Source: Sandaracinaceae bacterium (GTDB lineage: Bacteria; Myxococcota_A; Polyangia; Polyangiales; Sandaracinaceae). From it: DNA of 64,000 nucleotides. The translations under genes were made by a program, and so were the position numbers. Location: assembly GCA_019637095.1 (NCBI GenBank), contig JAHBWG010000032.1, positions 1 through 64,000 on the forward strand, read 5' to 3'. The number at the start of each line of letters is the position of its first letter. The stretch's first letter is position 1. A model generated the notes under the pieces. The model saw only the letters and a program-made list of their open reading frames with translations, was not told the origin of the DNA and ran no database searches. Below, piece after piece: positions 5,537-21,710 of this stretch.

Positions 5537-6307
5537 CTACGCTCCGGGCCCCGGCTCGCGGAGCACCGAGCGCAGCAGCGGGCCACCGCCGCGGAAGCCC
5601 ACGAGCGATCGATCGCGCGCGCGCGTGGGCGGCGCGGCGCGCGAGGTGAGGTAGCTCCCGACGAACATCCGCAGGCCCTCGCGGCGCTGAGGGCGGACCG
5701 CGTGCCAGGTGCACTGCTCGAACACGAGCGTGCTGCCGCGCGGGAAGGTCAGCTCGACCTGGCCGTCCCAGTCCGGCGCGCGCAGGTCGAAGGGCGGCTC
5801 GGTCGGGTCGGTGATCCGCCGCGGCAGCGCGAGGAGCGGGCCGCCGTCGGCGTCGACGTCGTCGAGATACACCACCGCGATCAGGCGCTCGCTCCGCGCG
5901 AACCGCGGGAAGACCCCCGACGCCCGCTGCGCCTCGACGTCGATCCCGCCGATGTGGTTGTGCCACGAGAAGAACGGGCGCCCCGCGTCCGAGATCACCG
6001 CGCCGGTGAGCTCGAGGGAGCAGTCCTCGCCGAGCACCGCCCGCGCGACCGCGAGGAGGCTCGGCGAGAGCAACCGCGGCGCGAGCTCGGGGGCGATCCC
6101 GAGCAGTTCGAAGATCACGAAGCCCGTCGGGTTGAGCATCGCGTTCTCGCCGAGCGCGCGCGCGGCGCTCGCGTACGGCGGCGGCGCGCCGTGCGCCTCG
6201 TGGATCGCCGTCAGGCGCGCCCGCATCGCCGCGACGGTGGCGTCGTCGTGCGTGCGCGGGAGCACGGTGTAGCCGCGCTCCGAGATCGCGCGGGCGTGCT
6301 CGTTCAC
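5537..6307 (-). CDS. PhyH-like Fe(II)/2-oxoglutarate oxygenase, paralog 1
   Basis: 256 residues; GTG start at 6307 overlaps the stop of the radical SAM gene by 4 bases (GTGA). The fold signals are those of phytanoyl-CoA dioxygenase: a proximal metal motif SWHNHIGGID (His116, His118, Asp123), a central segment VVYLDDVDADGGPLLALP, a distal His202 in CTWHAV and an Arg about ten residues later in GLRMFVG, the usual 2-oxoglutarate contact. The first motif reads HxH where PhyH enzymes normally have HxD. Substrate unknown. It is the last gene of a four-gene operon with two paralogs and a radical SAM enzyme. Confidence 0.82.
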   Translation of the reverse strand: MNEHARAISERGYTVLPRTHDDATVAAMRARLTAIHEAHGAPPPYASAARALGENAMLNPTGFVIFELLGIAPELAPRLLSPSLLAVARAVLGEDCSLELTGAVISDAGRPFFSWHNHIGGIDVEAQRASGVFPRFARSERLIAVVYLDDVDADGGPLLALPRRITDPTEPPFDLRAPDWDGQVELTFPRGSTLVFEQCTWHAVRPQRREGLRMFVGSYLTSRAAPPTRARDRSLVGFRGGGPLLRSVLREPGPGA

Positions 6308-7998
6308 GAGGCGCCCTCGCCGGCGAAGAGCCGGGCGAGATCGTCGGGCCCCAGTCCGTCGAGGCGCGCGGCGATCGAGTCGAGCGTCGAGAGGAGCCGC
6401 GGCGGCGCGGCGCGCCCCCGGTAGCTCAGGCCGAGCTGCGGCGTCGCGCGGTAGAACCGCCCACCGTCGTTCGCGCCGATGGTGACCGCGTGGGGCGCGA
6501 GGTCGACCGCCTCGAGCTCGAGGGTGACCACGCCGCCCCGCCACGCCGCGGCGTTGAGGCGCACACCACGATCGAGCGGCGCCGACGGCGCCTCGAGGCC
6601 GAGCAGCTCGACGAGGCCCGGCGGCGGCGCGGCCGCGGTCGCGGGGACGTCGACGGGGCGTGCGCGCGCCGCGCGCCCCTCACTCGTTGCCGCGACCAAC
6701 GCGGTCTGCAGCGCGGCGAGCTCGCGGAACGTCTCTTCACGCTCGGCCGCGCTGACGCACGCCGGAGTCGTGGTCTCGAGCGGCGGGTGGTCGTCGAGCC
6801 GCTCGCGCGCCGGCGCGGGCCACGCGCGCACCGCGGCGTCGCCCAGGCGCGTGCCCGGCAACGGCTGATAGGTCGACCAGACGAACGAGCCTGGGCGCAG
6901 CTTCTCGAGCAGCGCCTTGGTGCTGACCATCTGCGCGCGCGTCTCGCCTGGCAGCATCGTCATGAGCGACGCGCTCGTCGCGAGCCCGAGCGCGCGGCAG
7001 TCCTCGAAGACGCGCTCGAGCACCGCGTCGGGCGTGCGGCGACGGAGGACATCGCGCCGCAGCGCCTCGTCGCCGGCCTCGACGCCCGCGTGGAAGAGCA
7101 CGCAGCCCGCCTCGGCGAGCAGCGCGAGGCGCTCGCGAGTCGCGGCGCTCGGGTGCATCTCGACCTTGAACGGCAGCCCCACCCGCCGCGGGTAGGCCCG
7201 CGCGAGCGCGCGCAGCCAATCGACCGAGATCGGGAAGTGCTCGTCCCAGAACTCGAAGCCCTCGGGCGCGTAGTGGTCGCGGAGCACCGCGAGCTCGCCG
7301 AGCAGGTGCTCGACGGGGCGCACGTTCACGCGCCCGGGGCGCCGGTGCCCGCCGACCTCCCCCCACGCGGGCGCCGAGCAGTAGGCGCACTCGTAGGGGC
7401 AACCGCGGCTCGCGCGCACCGGCAGGAACCGATCGACGTGCGGCCCGAACGTGTTCACTCCCTCCCGCAAGATCGCTTGCACGTCTCCGAAGACCTCGTA
7501 GTCCCAGGGCGGGAGGCGCGCGATGTCCGGCTCGGGCGCCGCCTCGGGCGGCGCCCCCTCGAAGCCGCCGTCCCGTGAGCGGGCCCAGAGGCCCGGCTGC
7601 GTGCGCGGCACCTCGCCCGCCGCGAGCGTCCGGAGGAGCGAGGCGAGTGGCCGCTCGCCCTCGCCGATCGCGATGGCGTCCACCGCCGCGCAGGCCGCGA
7701 CGTCGAGGGACGCGAGCGTCGCGTGGTAGCCGCCGACCACCACGAACGCGCGCGAGCGCGGGCGCACGCGCTCCAAGACCGCGCGAGCGCCCGGCCAGTC
7801 GCGCGACATCGAGGAGACCGCGACCACGTCCGGCCCGCGCCGGACGATCTCGTCCGCCGCCGCCGCCACCGATCCCTTGCACGAGACCTCGAGCGCGTCG
7901 GGCGCGTGGCCCTCGACGCGCGCGACCGCCGACAGCGCCGCGACGGAGGAGCTGAAGGGGCGCGGCGGATCGGTGAAGAAGACGAAGAGGACCTTCAT
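6304..7998 (-). CDS. B12-binding-domain radical SAM protein
   Basis: 564 residues; ATG at 7998 overlaps the upstream oxygenase stop by 4 bases. Residues 1-130 look like the Rossmann-type cobalamin-binding domain of B12 radical SAM enzymes (MKVLFVFFTD at the start, VVVGGYHAT at 87-94), without the DxHxxG histidine motif. The radical SAM core follows with the cluster-binding Cys200, Cys204, Cys207 (GCPYECAYC), a GVEAGDE segment near 305 and a MLPGET strand near 349. A C-terminal domain of about 100 residues (460-564) is beta-rich and unfamiliar. Such enzymes methylate or rearrange unactivated carbons (family knowledge). Being sandwiched between PhyH-like genes suggests they act on the same small molecule or lipid. 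Confidence 0.88.
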   Translation of the reverse strand: MKVLFVFFTDPPRPFSSSVAALSAVARVEGHAPDALEVSCKGSVAAAADEIVRRGPDVVAVSSMSRDWPGARAVLERVRPRSRAFVVVGGYHATLASLDVAACAAVDAIAIGEGERPLASLLRTLAAGEVPRTQPGLWARSRDGGFEGAPPEAAPEPDIARLPPWDYEVFGDVQAILREGVNTFGPHVDRFLPVRASRGCPYECAYCSAPAWGEVGGHRRPGRVNVRPVEHLLGELAVLRDHYAPEGFEFWDEHFPISVDWLRALARAYPRRVGLPFKVEMHPSAATRERLALLAEAGCVLFHAGVEAGDEALRRDVLRRRTPDAVLERVFEDCRALGLATSASLMTMLPGETRAQMVSTKALLEKLRPGSFVWSTYQPLPGTRLGDAAVRAWPAPARERLDDHPPLETTTPACVSAAEREETFRELAALQTALVAATSEGRAARARPVDVPATAAAPPPGLVELLGLEAPSAPLDRGVRLNAAAWRGGVVTLELEAVDLAPHAVTIGANDGGRFYRATPQLGLSYRGRAAPPRLLSTLDSIAARLDGLGPDDLARLFAGEGAS

Positions 7999-8789
7999 CG
8001 GCGCTCGCTCCGGGGCGCGGCTCGGTCGAGCGTCGGCGCCGCGCGATAGACGGCGGCGAGGCGCGCGTCGATCGCGAGGGCGCGCGCGATCGACGGATCG
8101 GCGCGCCGGGTCGGAGGCGCGCCGGCGGCGCGCACGAAGCCCGCGACGAAGCGGCGCAGCCCCGGCGCTTGCATGGGGGTCACCGCGTGCCACGTGGCCT
8201 CGTCGAGCACGAGGACCGAGCCGGCGGGCGCGCGCACGACCTCGGCGTCGGGCCACGGCGCGTCGCGCCGCGGGTGCGGCGCGGCGAGCGGCTCGCCGAC
8301 GGCGCGCGGGTGCGCGAGCATGACGCCGTGGCGCTCGTCGAGCGGCGTCGCGTAGAACGTGCAGACGAGGCGCCCGAGCCGCGCTGGCGGAGGCGGCAGC
8401 CGGCCGCGGAAGTCCTCGCCGTCGATCCCGCCGACGTGGTTGTGCCAGAAGAAGAACGGGCGCGTCTCGTCGCTGATCACCGCGCACGTCAGCTCGAGCT
8501 CGAGCGCGTCGCCGAGCACCTCGCGCAGCAGCGCCACGAGCCCCGGGACCAGGAGCAGCGTGTCGAGCTCCGGCGCGCGGTCGAGCACTCCCGAGAACGT
8601 GAGCCCCACGGGGCTTATCGTGGCACCTTCGGCGACGCGCCGATCCTCCCGCGCACAGAGGGGGACGTCACCCACTTCGGCGCGCAGACGATCGAGCACG
8701 CACACCAGGCCGGCGGTGGCGGCGGCGTCGAGCGGCTCGGGCAGCAGAGTCCACCCGCGCGCCGCGAGCTCCTCGGCCGACCGGCTCAT
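7995..8789 (-). CDS. PhyH-like Fe(II)/2-oxoglutarate oxygenase, paralog 2
   Basis: 264 residues. The start ATG at 8789 overlaps the stop of paralog 3, and its own stop overlaps the radical SAM start, each by 4 bases. Motifs line up with paralog 1 residue for residue: FWHNHVGGID with His116 and His118, distal His201 in ATWHAV, and the Arg in GLRRFVAGF. The central segment (CTFYATPLDERHGVMLAHP) diverges from the LDD/LDE form of the other two, so the substrate pocket may differ. Like its paralogs it has HxH in place of HxD. No signal peptide; expected to be cytoplasmic. Confidence 0.8.
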   Translation of the reverse strand: MSRSAEELAARGWTLLPEPLDAAATAGLVCVLDRLRAEVGDVPLCAREDRRVAEGATISPVGLTFSGVLDRAPELDTLLLVPGLVALLREVLGDALELELTCAVISDETRPFFFWHNHVGGIDGEDFRGRLPPPPARLGRLVCTFYATPLDERHGVMLAHPRAVGEPLAAPHPRRDAPWPDAEVVRAPAGSVLVLDEATWHAVTPMQAPGLRRFVAGFVRAAGAPPTRRADPSIARALAIDARLAAVYRAAPTLDRAAPRSERR

Positions 8790-9628
8790 CGCGCGCGACC
8801 CGGCAACACGGCGCGCAGCACGTCGTCGGGTGACTCGAGCGCGCCGAGCGACGCGTCGACGCGCTCCGCCACGGTCGCGTGCGCGGCGGCGAACCAGAAC
8901 CCGACGAACATGCGGAGCGTGTCGCTCGGGGCGCGCGGCAGGACCGCGTGCCAGGTGCTCTGCTCCATCCACACGGCCGTGCCCGCCGGCCCCTCGACCG
9001 CCACCTGCCCTTCCCATCGTCGGGCCGAGATCGGGAACGGTGGCTCGAGCGGATCGGCCGGCGCGCGCGGCTTGATCAACAGCTGCCCCGTGTCGGCGCG
9101 CATCTCGTCCAGGTACACGATCATCGCGACCCGCTGCGGCGCGTCGAACGTCGGGCGCCACCCGCGCCGGCGGTACGCTTCGTCGTCGATCCCGCCGACG
9201 TGCATGTGCCACTCGAAGAAGCGGCGGCGGTGATCCGAGATCACCCCGCCGACCGCCTCGAGGTGCATGCCCTCACCGAGCGCGCCGCGCACGATCGTCA
9301 CCGCATCGGCCGGCAACGAGCCGCGCGCGAGGGAGGGCGCGCGGCCGAGCAGCCCGTGGATCACGAGGCCGGTCGCCGAGAGCTCGAGCCCGGGGCCGAG
9401 CCACGTCACGCCCTCGCCGTAGGGCGCCGGCGCGCCGGCCTCGCGGTGCACGCGCTCGAGCGCGGCGCGGAGGCGCGCGACCGCCTCACCGTCGTAGAGC
9501 GCCGGCCACACCGCGAACGAGCGCTCGCGGAGCTGCCGCGCGAGCCGCTCGACCCGCGCGTCCGCCGCGCGCCGTCCCGCCGCGAGCTCCACCGTGCGAT
9601 CCGACGTCCCGGACACGCGACACATCAT
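8786..9628 (-). CDS. PhyH-like Fe(II)/2-oxoglutarate oxygenase, paralog 3
   Basis: 280 residues from the ATG at 9628; an in-frame GTG at 9682 would add 18 residues and a GTG at 9592 would remove 12, and no Shine-Dalgarno decides between them. Motifs: EWHMHVGGID (His141, His143), IVYLDEMRADTGQLLIKP, distal His227 in STWHAV and the Arg in TLRMFVGFW. First gene of the operon, so its promoter should lie in the 122 bases shared with the divergent gene at 9751. Most similar to paralog 1 by eye, including the LDE/LDD strand and the PLEPPF / PTEPPF segment. Substrate unknown. Confidence 0.8.
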   Translation of the reverse strand: MMCRVSGTSDRTVELAAGRRAADARVERLARQLRERSFAVWPALYDGEAVARLRAALERVHREAGAPAPYGEGVTWLGPGLELSATGLVIHGLLGRAPSLARGSLPADAVTIVRGALGEGMHLEAVGGVISDHRRRFFEWHMHVGGIDDEAYRRRGWRPTFDAPQRVAMIVYLDEMRADTGQLLIKPRAPADPLEPPFPISARRWEGQVAVEGPAGTAVWMEQSTWHAVLPRAPSDTLRMFVGFWFAAAHATVAERVDASLGALESPDDVLRAVLPGRAR

Positions 9629-18064: not shown

Positions 18065-19687
18065 ATGCCGCCACGTTCGCGATTCGAGACGAGACGCCTC
18101 GCGCTGCTCTTCGTAGCGGCGACGGGCGTCGCCGCGACCATCGCGGTGACGTGGCCGCGCGCGGCCGCCTCCGACGACCCGCGCCTCTGCCGGCCGCAGC
18201 AGACCCGCCTCGACATCCACGGCTACGTGCGCGCGGTGAGCCTCGACGTGCGCGGCGTCGTCCCGACCGTCGAGGAGCACCGCGCGGTCGACGGACTCGA
18301 CGACCTCCCGGACGCGATGCTCGACGAGTGGCTTCGCTCGCAAGAGTTCCGCGAGCGGGTCGTGCGCCGGCACCGCGATCTGCTCTGGCCGAACATCGAG
18401 GCCGTCGATCAGATCTTCCACTTCCGCCGATCCTTCGGTCAGTTCGGCACGGGCGAGGATCGCATCTGGGCGCTGACGAACCAGCAGTCGCGCGCGCTGT
18501 TCCGCGGGGGCAACGTGACCTGCCGCGACGAGCCGGCGACCTTCGACGCCGAGGGCCGCCCGATCACGGTCGAGGAGGCCGACGGGTCGCGCCGCGAGGG
18601 CTGGGTGCGGGTGACTCCGTTCTGGGCGCCCGGCACGAGCGTGCGCGTCTGCGCGTTCGACGCCCAGGCCGCGCGGCTCTCCCCGAGCGGGATCGACTGC
18701 GCGACGCGCGCGGGCATCAACGACGCGGCGTGCGGCTGCGGGCCCGGCCTGGCCTGGTGCCCGCCGGCCGCGGCGCGCACCCAGATCCTCCGCTCCTTCA
18801 ACCGCGAGGTCGAGCGCCGCGTCGCCGCGCACCTCGAGGCCGACGAGCCGTACACCGCGCTCTTCACGAGCCCGCGCGCGTACGTCAACGGCCCGCTGGT
18901 CCACTACTGGCGTCACCTCACGGGGATCTTCAGCGGCGTCTCGATGCAGCCGCTCGCGATCGACGTCGAGCGCCTGCCCGACGTCCCGTTCGACCAGGCG
19001 GATCGCTGGGAGGAGATCCGCCTGCCGGACACGCACGCGGGCGTGCTCACGAGCCCCGTGTTCCTGCTGCGCTTCCAGACCAACCGCGCGCGCGCGGCGC
19101 GCTTCCACGAGGCGTTCCTCTGCGAGCCGTTCCAGCCTCCGCCGGGCGGCATCCCGCACGAGGACGAGGTCGCCGCGCTGAACCCGGACGTGCAGCAGCG
19201 GCCGGGCTGCAACTACTGCCACGCCATCCTCGAGCCCACCGCGGCGCACTGGGGCCGCTGGACGCAGCAGGGCGCCGGCTTCCTCGAGCCGACGCGCTTC
19301 CCGACCTACCGCGACGAGTGCCGCGAGTGCGCGCTCGGCACGACGGCGTGCTCCGACCTCTGCCGCTTCAACTACGTGACGCGCGCGATCTCGCCCGAGG
19401 AGGAGCCGTTCCTGGGGATGCTCTCCTCCCTCCAGTTCCTGCGCCGCGAACACCAGGAGAACGTCACCGCGGGCCCGCGCCAGCTCGTGACGCGCGGCAT
19501 CGCGGACGGCCGCCTCACCGCGTGCACCGCGCGAAACGCCGCTCGCTGGCTGCTCGGCCGCGACCCACGCGAGGGCGAAGAGGCGTGGCAGGCCGAGCTC
19601 ACCGACACGCTCATCGACTCGGGGCTGCGCTACCGCGAGCTCGTGCGCGCCATCGTGCGCAGCGAGACGTACCGGAGGGCGCTGTGA
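18065..19687 (+). CDS. Exported DUF1549/DUF1588-like cytochrome-type protein
   Basis: 540 residues. The ATG at 18065 has a good Shine-Dalgarno (GGAGG at 18054-18058), which decides it over an ATG at 18041. An N-terminal signal/anchor is followed by a segment that resembles DUF1549 (YVRAVSLDVRGVVPTVEEH...), then a canonical CxxCH, GCNYCHAILEP, as in DUF1588, and a C-terminal tail (LRYRELVRAIVRSETYR) like DUF1585. Planctomycetes and myxobacteria carry such proteins next to DUF1501 genes, usually with unknown roles in exported redox or polymer degradation systems (family knowledge). First gene of a five-gene plus-strand cluster; its stop overlaps the next GTG by 4 bases. Confidence 0.8.
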   Translation: MPPRSRFETRRLALLFVAATGVAATIAVTWPRAAASDDPRLCRPQQTRLDIHGYVRAVSLDVRGVVPTVEEHRAVDGLDDLPDAMLDEWLRSQEFRERVVRRHRDLLWPNIEAVDQIFHFRRSFGQFGTGEDRIWALTNQQSRALFRGGNVTCRDEPATFDAEGRPITVEEADGSRREGWVRVTPFWAPGTSVRVCAFDAQAARLSPSGIDCATRAGINDAACGCGPGLAWCPPAAARTQILRSFNREVERRVAAHLEADEPYTALFTSPRAYVNGPLVHYWRHLTGIFSGVSMQPLAIDVERLPDVPFDQADRWEEIRLPDTHAGVLTSPVFLLRFQTNRARAARFHEAFLCEPFQPPPGGIPHEDEVAALNPDVQQRPGCNYCHAILEPTAAHWGRWTQQGAGFLEPTRFPTYRDECRECALGTTACSDLCRFNYVTRAISPEEEPFLGMLSSLQFLRREHQENVTAGPRQLVTRGIADGRLTACTARNAARWLLGRDPREGEEAWQAELTDTLIDSGLRYRELVRAIVRSETYRRAL

Positions 19688-20316
19688 TCCGGCCCGCGCG
19701 CGTGATCGCGCTGGCGCTGCTCACCGGCCTGCTCGGCGGGAGCTGCGATCGCTCGGTGCCCATCGAGCTCGAGGACCGACGGCTCACGCCCCCCGAGGAC
19801 GTGGACCTCGGCACGGACCCGTGGCGCGGCCGGCGCCGGATGGACGTCGATCAGCTGCGCGCATCGATCGCGCGGGTCACCGGCGGGCTCGCGTGGGAAG
19901 TGAGCGGCGTCGACCAGCTCTCGCGCTTCTCCGAGACGCTCGGCGTGCCCGACTACGCGCGCGACACCGCGGAGGACCTGCAACCTTCGTTGCTGTTCCT
20001 CAAGTTCCTCGACGACGCGGCGCGCAGCGTGTGCCGGCGGCTCGTCGACGCGGAGCAGACCGCGCCGGCCGAGGCGCGCGTCTTCTTCACCGCGCTCGAC
20101 CCGAGCGTCCAGAGCCCGCCGCCCGCCGCGGTCCGCGAGAACCTCGCGGCGCTGCTGCTGCGCTACCACGGCCGCCTGCTCGAGCCCGAGGATCGCGCGA
20201 TCGACCCGTGGGTCGAGCTGCTCGAGAGCGCCGCGGTCGAGGACGCCGCGCCGGCGCGCGCCTGGGAGGCGGTCTGCGTCGCCCTCATCGATCACCCGGA
20301 CTTCTTCACGTACTGA
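19684..20316 (+). CDS. Lipoprotein of the DUF1549/DUF1501 cluster
   Basis: 210 residues from a GTG at 19684 (GTGA overlap with the previous stop). Signal peptide with lipobox LGGSC. The middle is helical. The C-terminus, AWEAVCVALIDHPDFFTY, resembles the 'ALLNSxEF' tail of DUF1549/DUF1553 proteins, so this gene may be a split-off partner of its neighbour. It is followed after 11 bases by the DUF1501 gene. Function unknown; probably part of the same envelope complex. Confidence 0.75.
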   Translation: MIRPARVIALALLTGLLGGSCDRSVPIELEDRRLTPPEDVDLGTDPWRGRRRMDVDQLRASIARVTGGLAWEVSGVDQLSRFSETLGVPDYARDTAEDLQPSLLFLKFLDDAARSVCRRLVDAEQTAPAEARVFFTALDPSVQSPPPAAVRENLAALLLRYHGRLLEPEDRAIDPWVELLESAAVEDAAPARAWEAVCVALIDHPDFFTY

Positions 20317-20327
20317 GAGGAGCAGCC

Positions 20328-21710
20328 GTGCGCGACCAGCCCGACACGCGCGCCTCCCGGCGCAACTTCCTGAAGGGGGTCCTCTTCGCGGGGGGCGGCG
20401 CCGCGCTCGGCGCCGGCTCGCTCGACGTGCTCGCGCGGCTCGCGCGCGGACAGGAGGACACGCGCGACCGCTTCTACGTGTTCGCCTACTTCTCGGGTGG
20501 CTGGGACACGCTGCTCTCGCTCGACCCGCGCGACCCGGCGACCTTCGGGCCCGACGCGATCGGCGGCACCCGCATCATGCCCGGCTACGAGCAGCTCGCG
20601 ACGCCGCCCGCCGACCCGCTCGTGCGCGCGTCCGACGCCCTGACGTTCGGCCCGTTCGTCGGCGAGCTCGCCTCGCTCGCGAGTCGCACCGCGGTCATCC
20701 GCGGCATGAGCATGGACACGCTCACGCACGAGGTCGGGCGCCGCCGCTTCCTCACCGGCAAGGTTCCGTCGGGGCTCAACGCGCGCGGCTCGAGCGGCTC
20801 GGCGTGGATCGCCTCGCAGTTCGGGACCAACCGGCTGATCCCGAACCTGTCGGTGCGCGTCGAGGCGTTCAACCCCGAGCTCGGGCCGGACTACTCCGCG
20901 CTGCGCGTGTCGCGCGCCGAGGATCTCGTCGCGATGCTACAGCGCGCGACCCCCGTGCTCGCCGAGCCCGTCGACGAGGCGGTCGACGCGTTCCTCACCC
21001 AGAGCGCGCGCTGCTCGCGCGCGACGGGATCACCGATGCTCCGCGCTGCGGAGGCGTCGCGGCGCCGGATGCGCACCGTGCTCGCGGCCGACGTGCAGTC
21101 CCTCTTCGACTTCCGCGCCAACACGCCCGAGATGGAGGCGCTGCGCAGCCACTTCGGCTTCACCGCGACGACGAGCGACAGCCCGGGTGGGCGCGCCGCG
21201 ATCGCGGCGCAGGCGCTCGTCCACGGCGTCGCGCGCTGCGTGACGATCGAGGCCGCGGGTGGGCTCGACACGCACTTCGACGAGTGGTCGCGCGATCAGG
21301 GCCCGCGCCAGCAGGCCGGCTTCGACGCGCTCGCCCGCCTCGCGCGCTACCTCGAGGGGGTCCCCTACGACGAGCGCGGCTCCGAGAGCATGCTCGACCG
21401 GACGGTGATCGTCGGCTTCAGCGAGTTCATGCGCACGCCGCTCCTCAACGCCCGCGGCGGCCGCGACCACTGGCTGACGAACTCGTGCTTCCTCCTCGGC
21501 GGCCCCTTCCGTGGTGATCAGGCGATCGGCGCGTCCTCCGACGTCGGCATGGCGCCGCAGCCGGTCGACCTCGCGACGGGGCGCCTCGATCCGGGCGGCG
21601 TCGTGATCCGACCCGAGAACGTGCTGCGGACGCTGCTCGTCGACGCCGGGCTCGCCGACGACCGGGCCGACCTGCGCGCCGACCCGATCGGCGCGTTGCT
21701 GCGGAGCTGA
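20328..21710 (+). CDS. DUF1501 protein with Tat signal
   Basis: 460 residues; GTG at 20328 with a GAGAGGAG Shine-Dalgarno (20315-20322). The N-terminus has a twin-arginine motif SRRNFLKG (residues 10-17) and a Gly/Ala-rich hydrophobic stretch, so it is exported folded, as expected for a cofactor- or metal-bearing protein. The body has the DUF1501 features: a YFSGGWDTLLSLDPRD start, a central GGLDTHFDEW segment and an IVGFSEFMRTP...GGRDHW segment, which resembles the metal-site region of the sulfatase/alkaline phosphatase superfamily. Substrate unknown. Core member of the cluster. Confidence 0.88.
   Translation: MRDQPDTRASRRNFLKGVLFAGGGAALGAGSLDVLARLARGQEDTRDRFYVFAYFSGGWDTLLSLDPRDPATFGPDAIGGTRIMPGYEQLATPPADPLVRASDALTFGPFVGELASLASRTAVIRGMSMDTLTHEVGRRRFLTGKVPSGLNARGSSGSAWIASQFGTNRLIPNLSVRVEAFNPELGPDYSALRVSRAEDLVAMLQRATPVLAEPVDEAVDAFLTQSARCSRATGSPMLRAAEASRRRMRTVLAADVQSLFDFRANTPEMEALRSHFGFTATTSDSPGGRAAIAAQALVHGVARCVTIEAAGGLDTHFDEWSRDQGPRQQAGFDALARLARYLEGVPYDERGSESMLDRTVIVGFSEFMRTPLLNARGGRDHWLTNSCFLLGGPFRGDQAIGASSDVGMAPQPVDLATGRLDPGGVVIRPENVLRTLLVDAGLADDRADLRADPIGALLRS

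Follow-up and report, generated by a model that had tools for sequence, protein, structure and literature searches.

Enzymes of the PhyH family hold their iron through an H-x-D...H motif. Variants of prolyl 4-hydroxylase with an Asp-to-His exchange or a rearranged triad were inactive (PMC2767507), and 3-His centers are recorded for thiol dioxygenases and Dke1 in a review (PMC4019311). No description of a PhyH enzyme with an H-x-H motif was found in the literature searched, the coverage of which is incomplete. Here we describe a four-gene cassette in a 64,000-nucleotide stretch from Sandaracinaceae bacterium (GenBank assembly GCA_019637095.1, contig JAHBWG010000032.1, positions 1 to 64,000; referred to as the window), in which three PhyH-fold oxygenase paralogs, OxA, OxB, and OxD, surround R1, a B12-binding/radical S-adenosylmethionine (SAM) protein. 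The source genome, from the phylum Myxococcota, is 9.25 Mb in size. The cassette is best supported as the oxidation and radical-functionalization module of a split pathway, and we lean slightly toward reading it as one half of a two-locus, Polyangia-class pathway that tailors a small aromatic molecule, the product of which is probably a prenylated aromatic.

All four genes lie on the minus strand in the order OxA (positions 8786 to 9628, 280 amino acids), OxB (7995 to 8789, 264 amino acids), R1 (6304 to 7998, 564 amino acids), and OxD (5537 to 6307, 256 amino acids, GTG start), confirming from 9628 to 5537 the order and 4-base overlaps given in the initial annotation: ATGA for OxA/OxB and OxB/R1, and GTGA for R1/OxD. 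All four were called as coding by codon statistics, and the overlaps suggest that they would be translated as one unit. The motifs by which the oxygenases had been recognized as paralogs are present as stated, with H-x-H, the distal His, and an Arg found, respectively, in WHMHVGGID, TWHAV, and LRMFV of OxA, in WHNHVGGID, TWHAV, and LRRFV of OxB, and in WHNHIGGID, TWHAV, and LRMFV of OxD. OxA and OxB share 43% and 39% identity, respectively, with OxD, and all three fall within one family tree. The Pfam PhyH model matched OxD above the cut-off (8e-8) and OxA below it (0.13), and the Pfam search returned no match of any kind for OxB. OxA and OxB have diverged too far for the model, and OxB was assigned via its homology to OxD.

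Relatives of R1 sharing 49 to 68% identity were identified in Enhygromyxa salina SWB005 and SWB007, in Sandaracinaceae, and in other Polyangia. Both E. salina genomes (loci L198 and L199) carry the gene order R2-OxA-OxB-R1-OxD, where R2 is a second B12-radical SAM protein. The order in the Sandaracinus-type genome G181 (locus L051) is R2-OxA-OxB-R1-X4-R3-Ox, which adds the prenyltransferase-fold protein X4 and a third radical SAM protein, R3, and a Polyangia bin (L196) has R2-R1-OxD beside Ox-R3-X4. Recurrence in conserved order, proposed in the initial annotation as the check on its "3+1 cassette," was seen in other genomes; the 3+1 unit is itself one piece of a bigger set of genes that is modular. 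In a tree of 39 oxygenases, OxA, OxB, and OxD each define a clade (support of 0.998, 1.0, and 0.998, respectively) made up of the window gene and its Enhygromyxa orthologs, with G181 also represented in the OxA and OxB clades and the Polyangia bin in that of OxD. As these orthologous clades are separate, the paralogs are old and their roles probably distinct. Judged from sequence, the cassette is an ancient, recurrent unit.

The genes flanking the cassette, encoding a DeoC aldolase, an aldehyde dehydrogenase, an AAA (MoxR-like) ATPase, and a VWA-CoxE protein, are ordinary and unrelated on both sides, so that the reported lack of an adjacent scaffold gene holds for the window. The suggestion that the partner is located elsewhere was also borne out: elsewhere in this genome, contig C163 encodes R2, X4, and R3 along with one more oxygenase, the fourth (OxE), and therefore the "missing" partner lies apart from the cassette, while in relatives (L051 and L196) the two halves are joined. 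Co-occurrence was counted across 184 genomes of the order (Ox threshold, E < 1e-30). Ox was found in 13 genomes, R2 in 24, X4 in 22 (a count that omits one weak match), R3 in 21, and R1 in 7. R2 is present in all Ox genomes (13/13), X4 and R3 in 12 of the 13, and Ox in each of the 7 R1 genomes; R3 accompanies X4 in 21/22 genomes, with the paired matches adjacent in nearly all. Across 379 Myxococcota genomes, strong Ox matches were confined to this order and to family f16, which includes Enhygromyxa. In X4-R3 genomes lacking Ox, the pair instead adjoins WelO5-type proteins, Rieske oxygenases, or canonical PhyH proteins, which suggests that X4-R3 is a conserved core with exchangeable oxidative tailoring. 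WelO5-type enzymes, checked as possible partners of Ox, were never seen to co-occur with it, but adjoin X4-R3 in other genomes. Genome G182 has three halogenase-like genes of the WelO5 type on the flanks of X4-R3 and a prenyltransferase-like gene (L099:7394-13670), a candidate free-standing halogenation cluster.

An AlphaFold2 (AF2) model of Ox (pLDDT of 96.2) has the double-stranded beta-helix fold of PhyH enzymes and is nearest to FtmOx1, EasH, SnoN, and SptF (Z of about 19 to 21), which act as 2-oxoglutarate (2OG) oxygenases in the biosynthesis of alkaloids, meroterpenoids, and polyketides; VIA gave a Z of 21.1 to FtmOx1 (3.2 Å over 233 residues). The earlier label "PhyH-like" is thereby upheld for the fold but not for the family-defining HxD motif, which the oxygenases lack. 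Across the 39 sequences, the 2-His-1-carboxylate triad (HxD/E...H) is absent: the first metal-site position is occupied by His in 35 sequences and by Glu in the other 4, which form one clade (support of 0.997), and the third position and the distal residue are His in all 39. The 2OG-type Arg that follows the distal His, aligned with SnoK, is retained in 38/39. The codons for His116-Asn117-His118 of OxD (positions 5954 to 5962, minus strand) align at the place of the PhyH HxD, and a profile alignment matches His118 with the Asp of bona fide PhyH proteins encoded at related loci. From the alignments, the metal ligands of the Ox proteins would be His-x-His...His or Glu-x-His...His, replacing His-x-Asp...His.

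R1 matched the Pfam B12-binding (PF02310, 1.4e-11) and Radical_SAM (PF04055, 7.1e-16) models and contains CxxxCxxC within RGCPYECAYC. Against the named NCBIfam B12-radical SAM subfamilies it is below every family cut-off, the best score being 88 bits against a cut-off of 251. R2 resembles KedN5-type B12 radical SAM methyltransferases, and R3 has an HxsC/MoaA-type resemblance and is nearest to HxsC-type maturases, both below cut-off. Further radical SAM genes were seen in the vicinity of related loci: one that adjoins the G181 cluster (L158:2687-4534) encodes a fusion to a SAM-methyltransferase domain, and another encodes a tandem protein with two radical SAM domains (L068:4350-6161 and homologs) that is recurrent near X4-R3 loci in several genomes. 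A complete-looking His-Xaa-Ser (HXS) set (HxsC4, HxsB, HxsD-like, and HxsD; L051:3237-6950) follows R2-OxA-OxB-R1-X4-R3-Ox on the same strand in G181, and an HxsC4-like gene lies near the X4 locus in G182 (L220).

The AF2 model of X4 (pLDDT of 94) forms an ABBA barrel, and its top fold matches are ABBA prenyltransferases. Using Foldseek, the best match was AmbP3 (E of 4e-7), followed by KgpF, LimF, and DciF; VIA gave Z values of up to 13.6 (4.1 Å over 245 residues), with matches at 3.9 to 4.5 Å over about 240 residues. A conserved Lys and Tyr in A1 would be compatible with prenyl transfer and with intact residues for diphosphate binding. Matches of X4 to capsid and gp41 sequences in the PDB were dismissed as chance. 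A separate prenyltransferase-like set (c6/c13/c15) has weak PDB sequence matches to peptide prenyltransferases of the LynF/TruF/PatF types; profile comparison gave no link between this set and X4.

R1, R2, and R3 all end in a previously undescribed domain of about 90 residues, located in R1 at positions 6307 to 6567 (minus strand), where it ends in LGLSYRG plus a helix. As read off the sequences, the domain is beta-rich and continues through SYRG/HYRN into a helix; no PDB relative was found by sequence. At the same loci it also occurs in proteins of the PhyH-amidohydrolase, SplB-like, and prenyltransferase-like kinds. Profile-profile comparisons linked the domains of R1 and R2 (E of 4e-7), that of R2 to the N terminus of the PhyH-amidohydrolase fusions (9e-8), and both R1 (3e-6) and R2 (7e-7) to the N terminus of SplB-like radical SAM proteins, and connected the SplB-like domain more weakly (3e-5) with R3 and with c6, a prenyltransferase-like protein. 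These links scored 25 to 42, and unrelated control pairs scored no more than 17. Within the window's genome the domain profile found R1, R2, R3, c6, a SplB-like protein (contig C158), and an unknown protein (contig C133); it also recovered a domain-bearing oxygenase from outside the training set (L050, E of 2e-14), and it identified the domain in 66/379 Myxococcota genomes. Next to R2, two fusion proteins (L065:5248-7770 and L067:3649-5982) combine the domain with an amidohydrolase domain and a PhyH domain of the canonical type (HQD). In other Myxococcota families, secreted-type proteins of 489 to 1,145 amino acids carry the domain near their N terminus (L206, L208, L209, and L211), and the domain is therefore not exclusive to this pathway.

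In the two-locus pathway that we favor, X4 would attach an isoprenoid to an aromatic substrate or intermediate, of indole or tyrosine type, that is processed by R3, and R1 and R2 may functionalize unactivated carbons, most likely via C-methylation. The four nonredundant iron oxygenases could each oxidize a separate position, and the domain of about 90 residues in R1, R2, R3, and other pathway-type enzymes may serve as a common docking or substrate-presentation module. Several observations weigh against parts of this scheme. The hypergeometric co-occurrence values, 1e-9 to 1e-14, take no account of shared ancestry, although the genomes represent five families, and R1 is unlinked to oxygenases in 4/7 R1 genomes of the order (G017, G048, G179, and G180). 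X4 has no match in Pfam or NCBIfam. R2 and R3 are joined through third profiles alone, with no direct profile link, and among 20 sampled domain regions many carriers were radical SAM proteins and some were of the secreted type. Among the Ox proteins, Glu99 is invariant and Asp123 frequent, and either could also bind metal. We put forward only tentatively the more specific proposal that the oxygenases are natural PhyH-fold, 2OG-type iron enzymes with a three-His site (in one clade, a carboxylate at the first position), and that a single recruiting domain is common to the radical SAM, prenyltransferase-like, and oxygenase enzymes of the modular pathway in which they operate.

The same shared domain could be read differently, as recognizing a common leader or carrier peptide, itself the substrate of the radical SAM enzymes, the prenyltransferase, and the oxygenases, on the model of cyanobactins or HXS systems; such a ribosomally synthesized and posttranslationally modified peptide (RiPP) or peptide-tag pathway would resemble RRE-domain logic in placing a single domain across several enzyme superfamilies. 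The proximity of R3 to HxsC-type maturases, the G181 cluster running straight into an HXS system (HxsD, HxsD-like, HxsB, and HxsC4), the peptide prenyltransferases LimF, KgpF, and DciF among the best Foldseek matches of X4, and the LynF/TruF/PatF-type matches of the c6/c13/c15 set all point in this direction. However, 394 small open reading frames in the gaps of 23 loci yielded one conserved pair, found in two Enhygromyxa genomes and apparently a lipoprotein, the HXS neighborhood is limited to two Sandaracinus-type genomes (no HxsB or HxsD was seen beside the cluster outside them), and in the window's genome the genes for these enzymes lie on at least four different contigs. A RiPP or peptide-tag pathway is considered unlikely, although a precursor gene that is distant or overlaps another gene may exist.

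The initial annotation had named a lipid or cofactor as a possible target, for which no support was found. That R1 and the oxygenases act as a cassette of their own on a lipid or cofactor, with no relation to X4-R3, seems improbable: R1 is partly similar to models of lipid radical SAM enzymes (HpnJ/HpnR and ladderane-type), scoring far under the cut-off in every case, and stands alone in four genomes, but within the order it is confined to genomes with Ox, R2, R3, and X4, it has its C-terminal domain in common with R2 and R3, and in G181 it lies in one operon-like run with both. Least probable, in our estimation, is that indiacen A and B, prenyl indoles described from Sandaracinus, are the products of this pathway. 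G181 and G182, the putative genomes of the producers in PMC9306752, both carry X4-R3, and WelO5-type halogenase-like enzymes are found at the X4 locus of G182. Both genomes nevertheless encode, at another site, a canonical Trp_DMAT prenyltransferase (4e-15) that has no counterpart in the window's genome, and X4 is therefore not needed to explain the indiacens, weakening their biosynthesis via X4; in addition, the Ox family is missing from G182, and a WelO5-type match from G181.

Elsewhere in the window, unrelated to the cassette, a gene with a weak, below-cut-off PSD2/DUF1585 match lies with a DUF1501 domain gene (positions 18065 to 21710); such pairs are typical of secreted myxobacterial or planctomycete proteins.

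No description of a gene cluster of this kind was found in the literature searched, which was incompletely covered, and standard Pfam and NCBIfam models give the class no name. The gene set marks an uncharted class of myxobacterial clusters, in which the pairing of a radical SAM with a prenyltransferase-fold enzyme is the common link and the iron enzymes are exchangeable, and the shared domain offers a handle for finding all of its members even where genes are scattered. The predicted metal site is one that, going by earlier work, would be nonfunctional. A conserved natural H-x-H/E-x-H family that combines the PhyH fold with an intact 2OG-type Arg would allow a direct test of the H-x-D requirement and might uncover iron chemistry of a new kind.

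Compared with described systems, X4 has the ABBA fold of AmbP3, LimF, KgpF, FgaPT2, and 6-DMATS, but shares 10 to 15% identity with these prenyltransferases, lacks a Pfam match, and is nearly always encoded immediately upstream of a radical SAM gene. R1 has B12-binding and Radical_SAM domains and CxxxCxxC in common with the KedN5, ApyD, TIGR04013, and HpnR families, whereas it scores below their cut-offs and bears the additional C-terminal domain common to unrelated enzymes. R3 is like HxsC/HxsC4 of the HXS systems, one of which adjoins the cluster in G181, but is far below the HxsC cut-offs. The Ox proteins match the natural-product PhyH-family 2OG oxygenases SnoK, FtmOx1, EasH, AsqJ, and SptF in fold, length, distal His, and 2OG-type Arg, with OxA lying below and OxB outside the Pfam PhyH model, and differ from them in having HxH, or ExH in one clade, in place of HxD.

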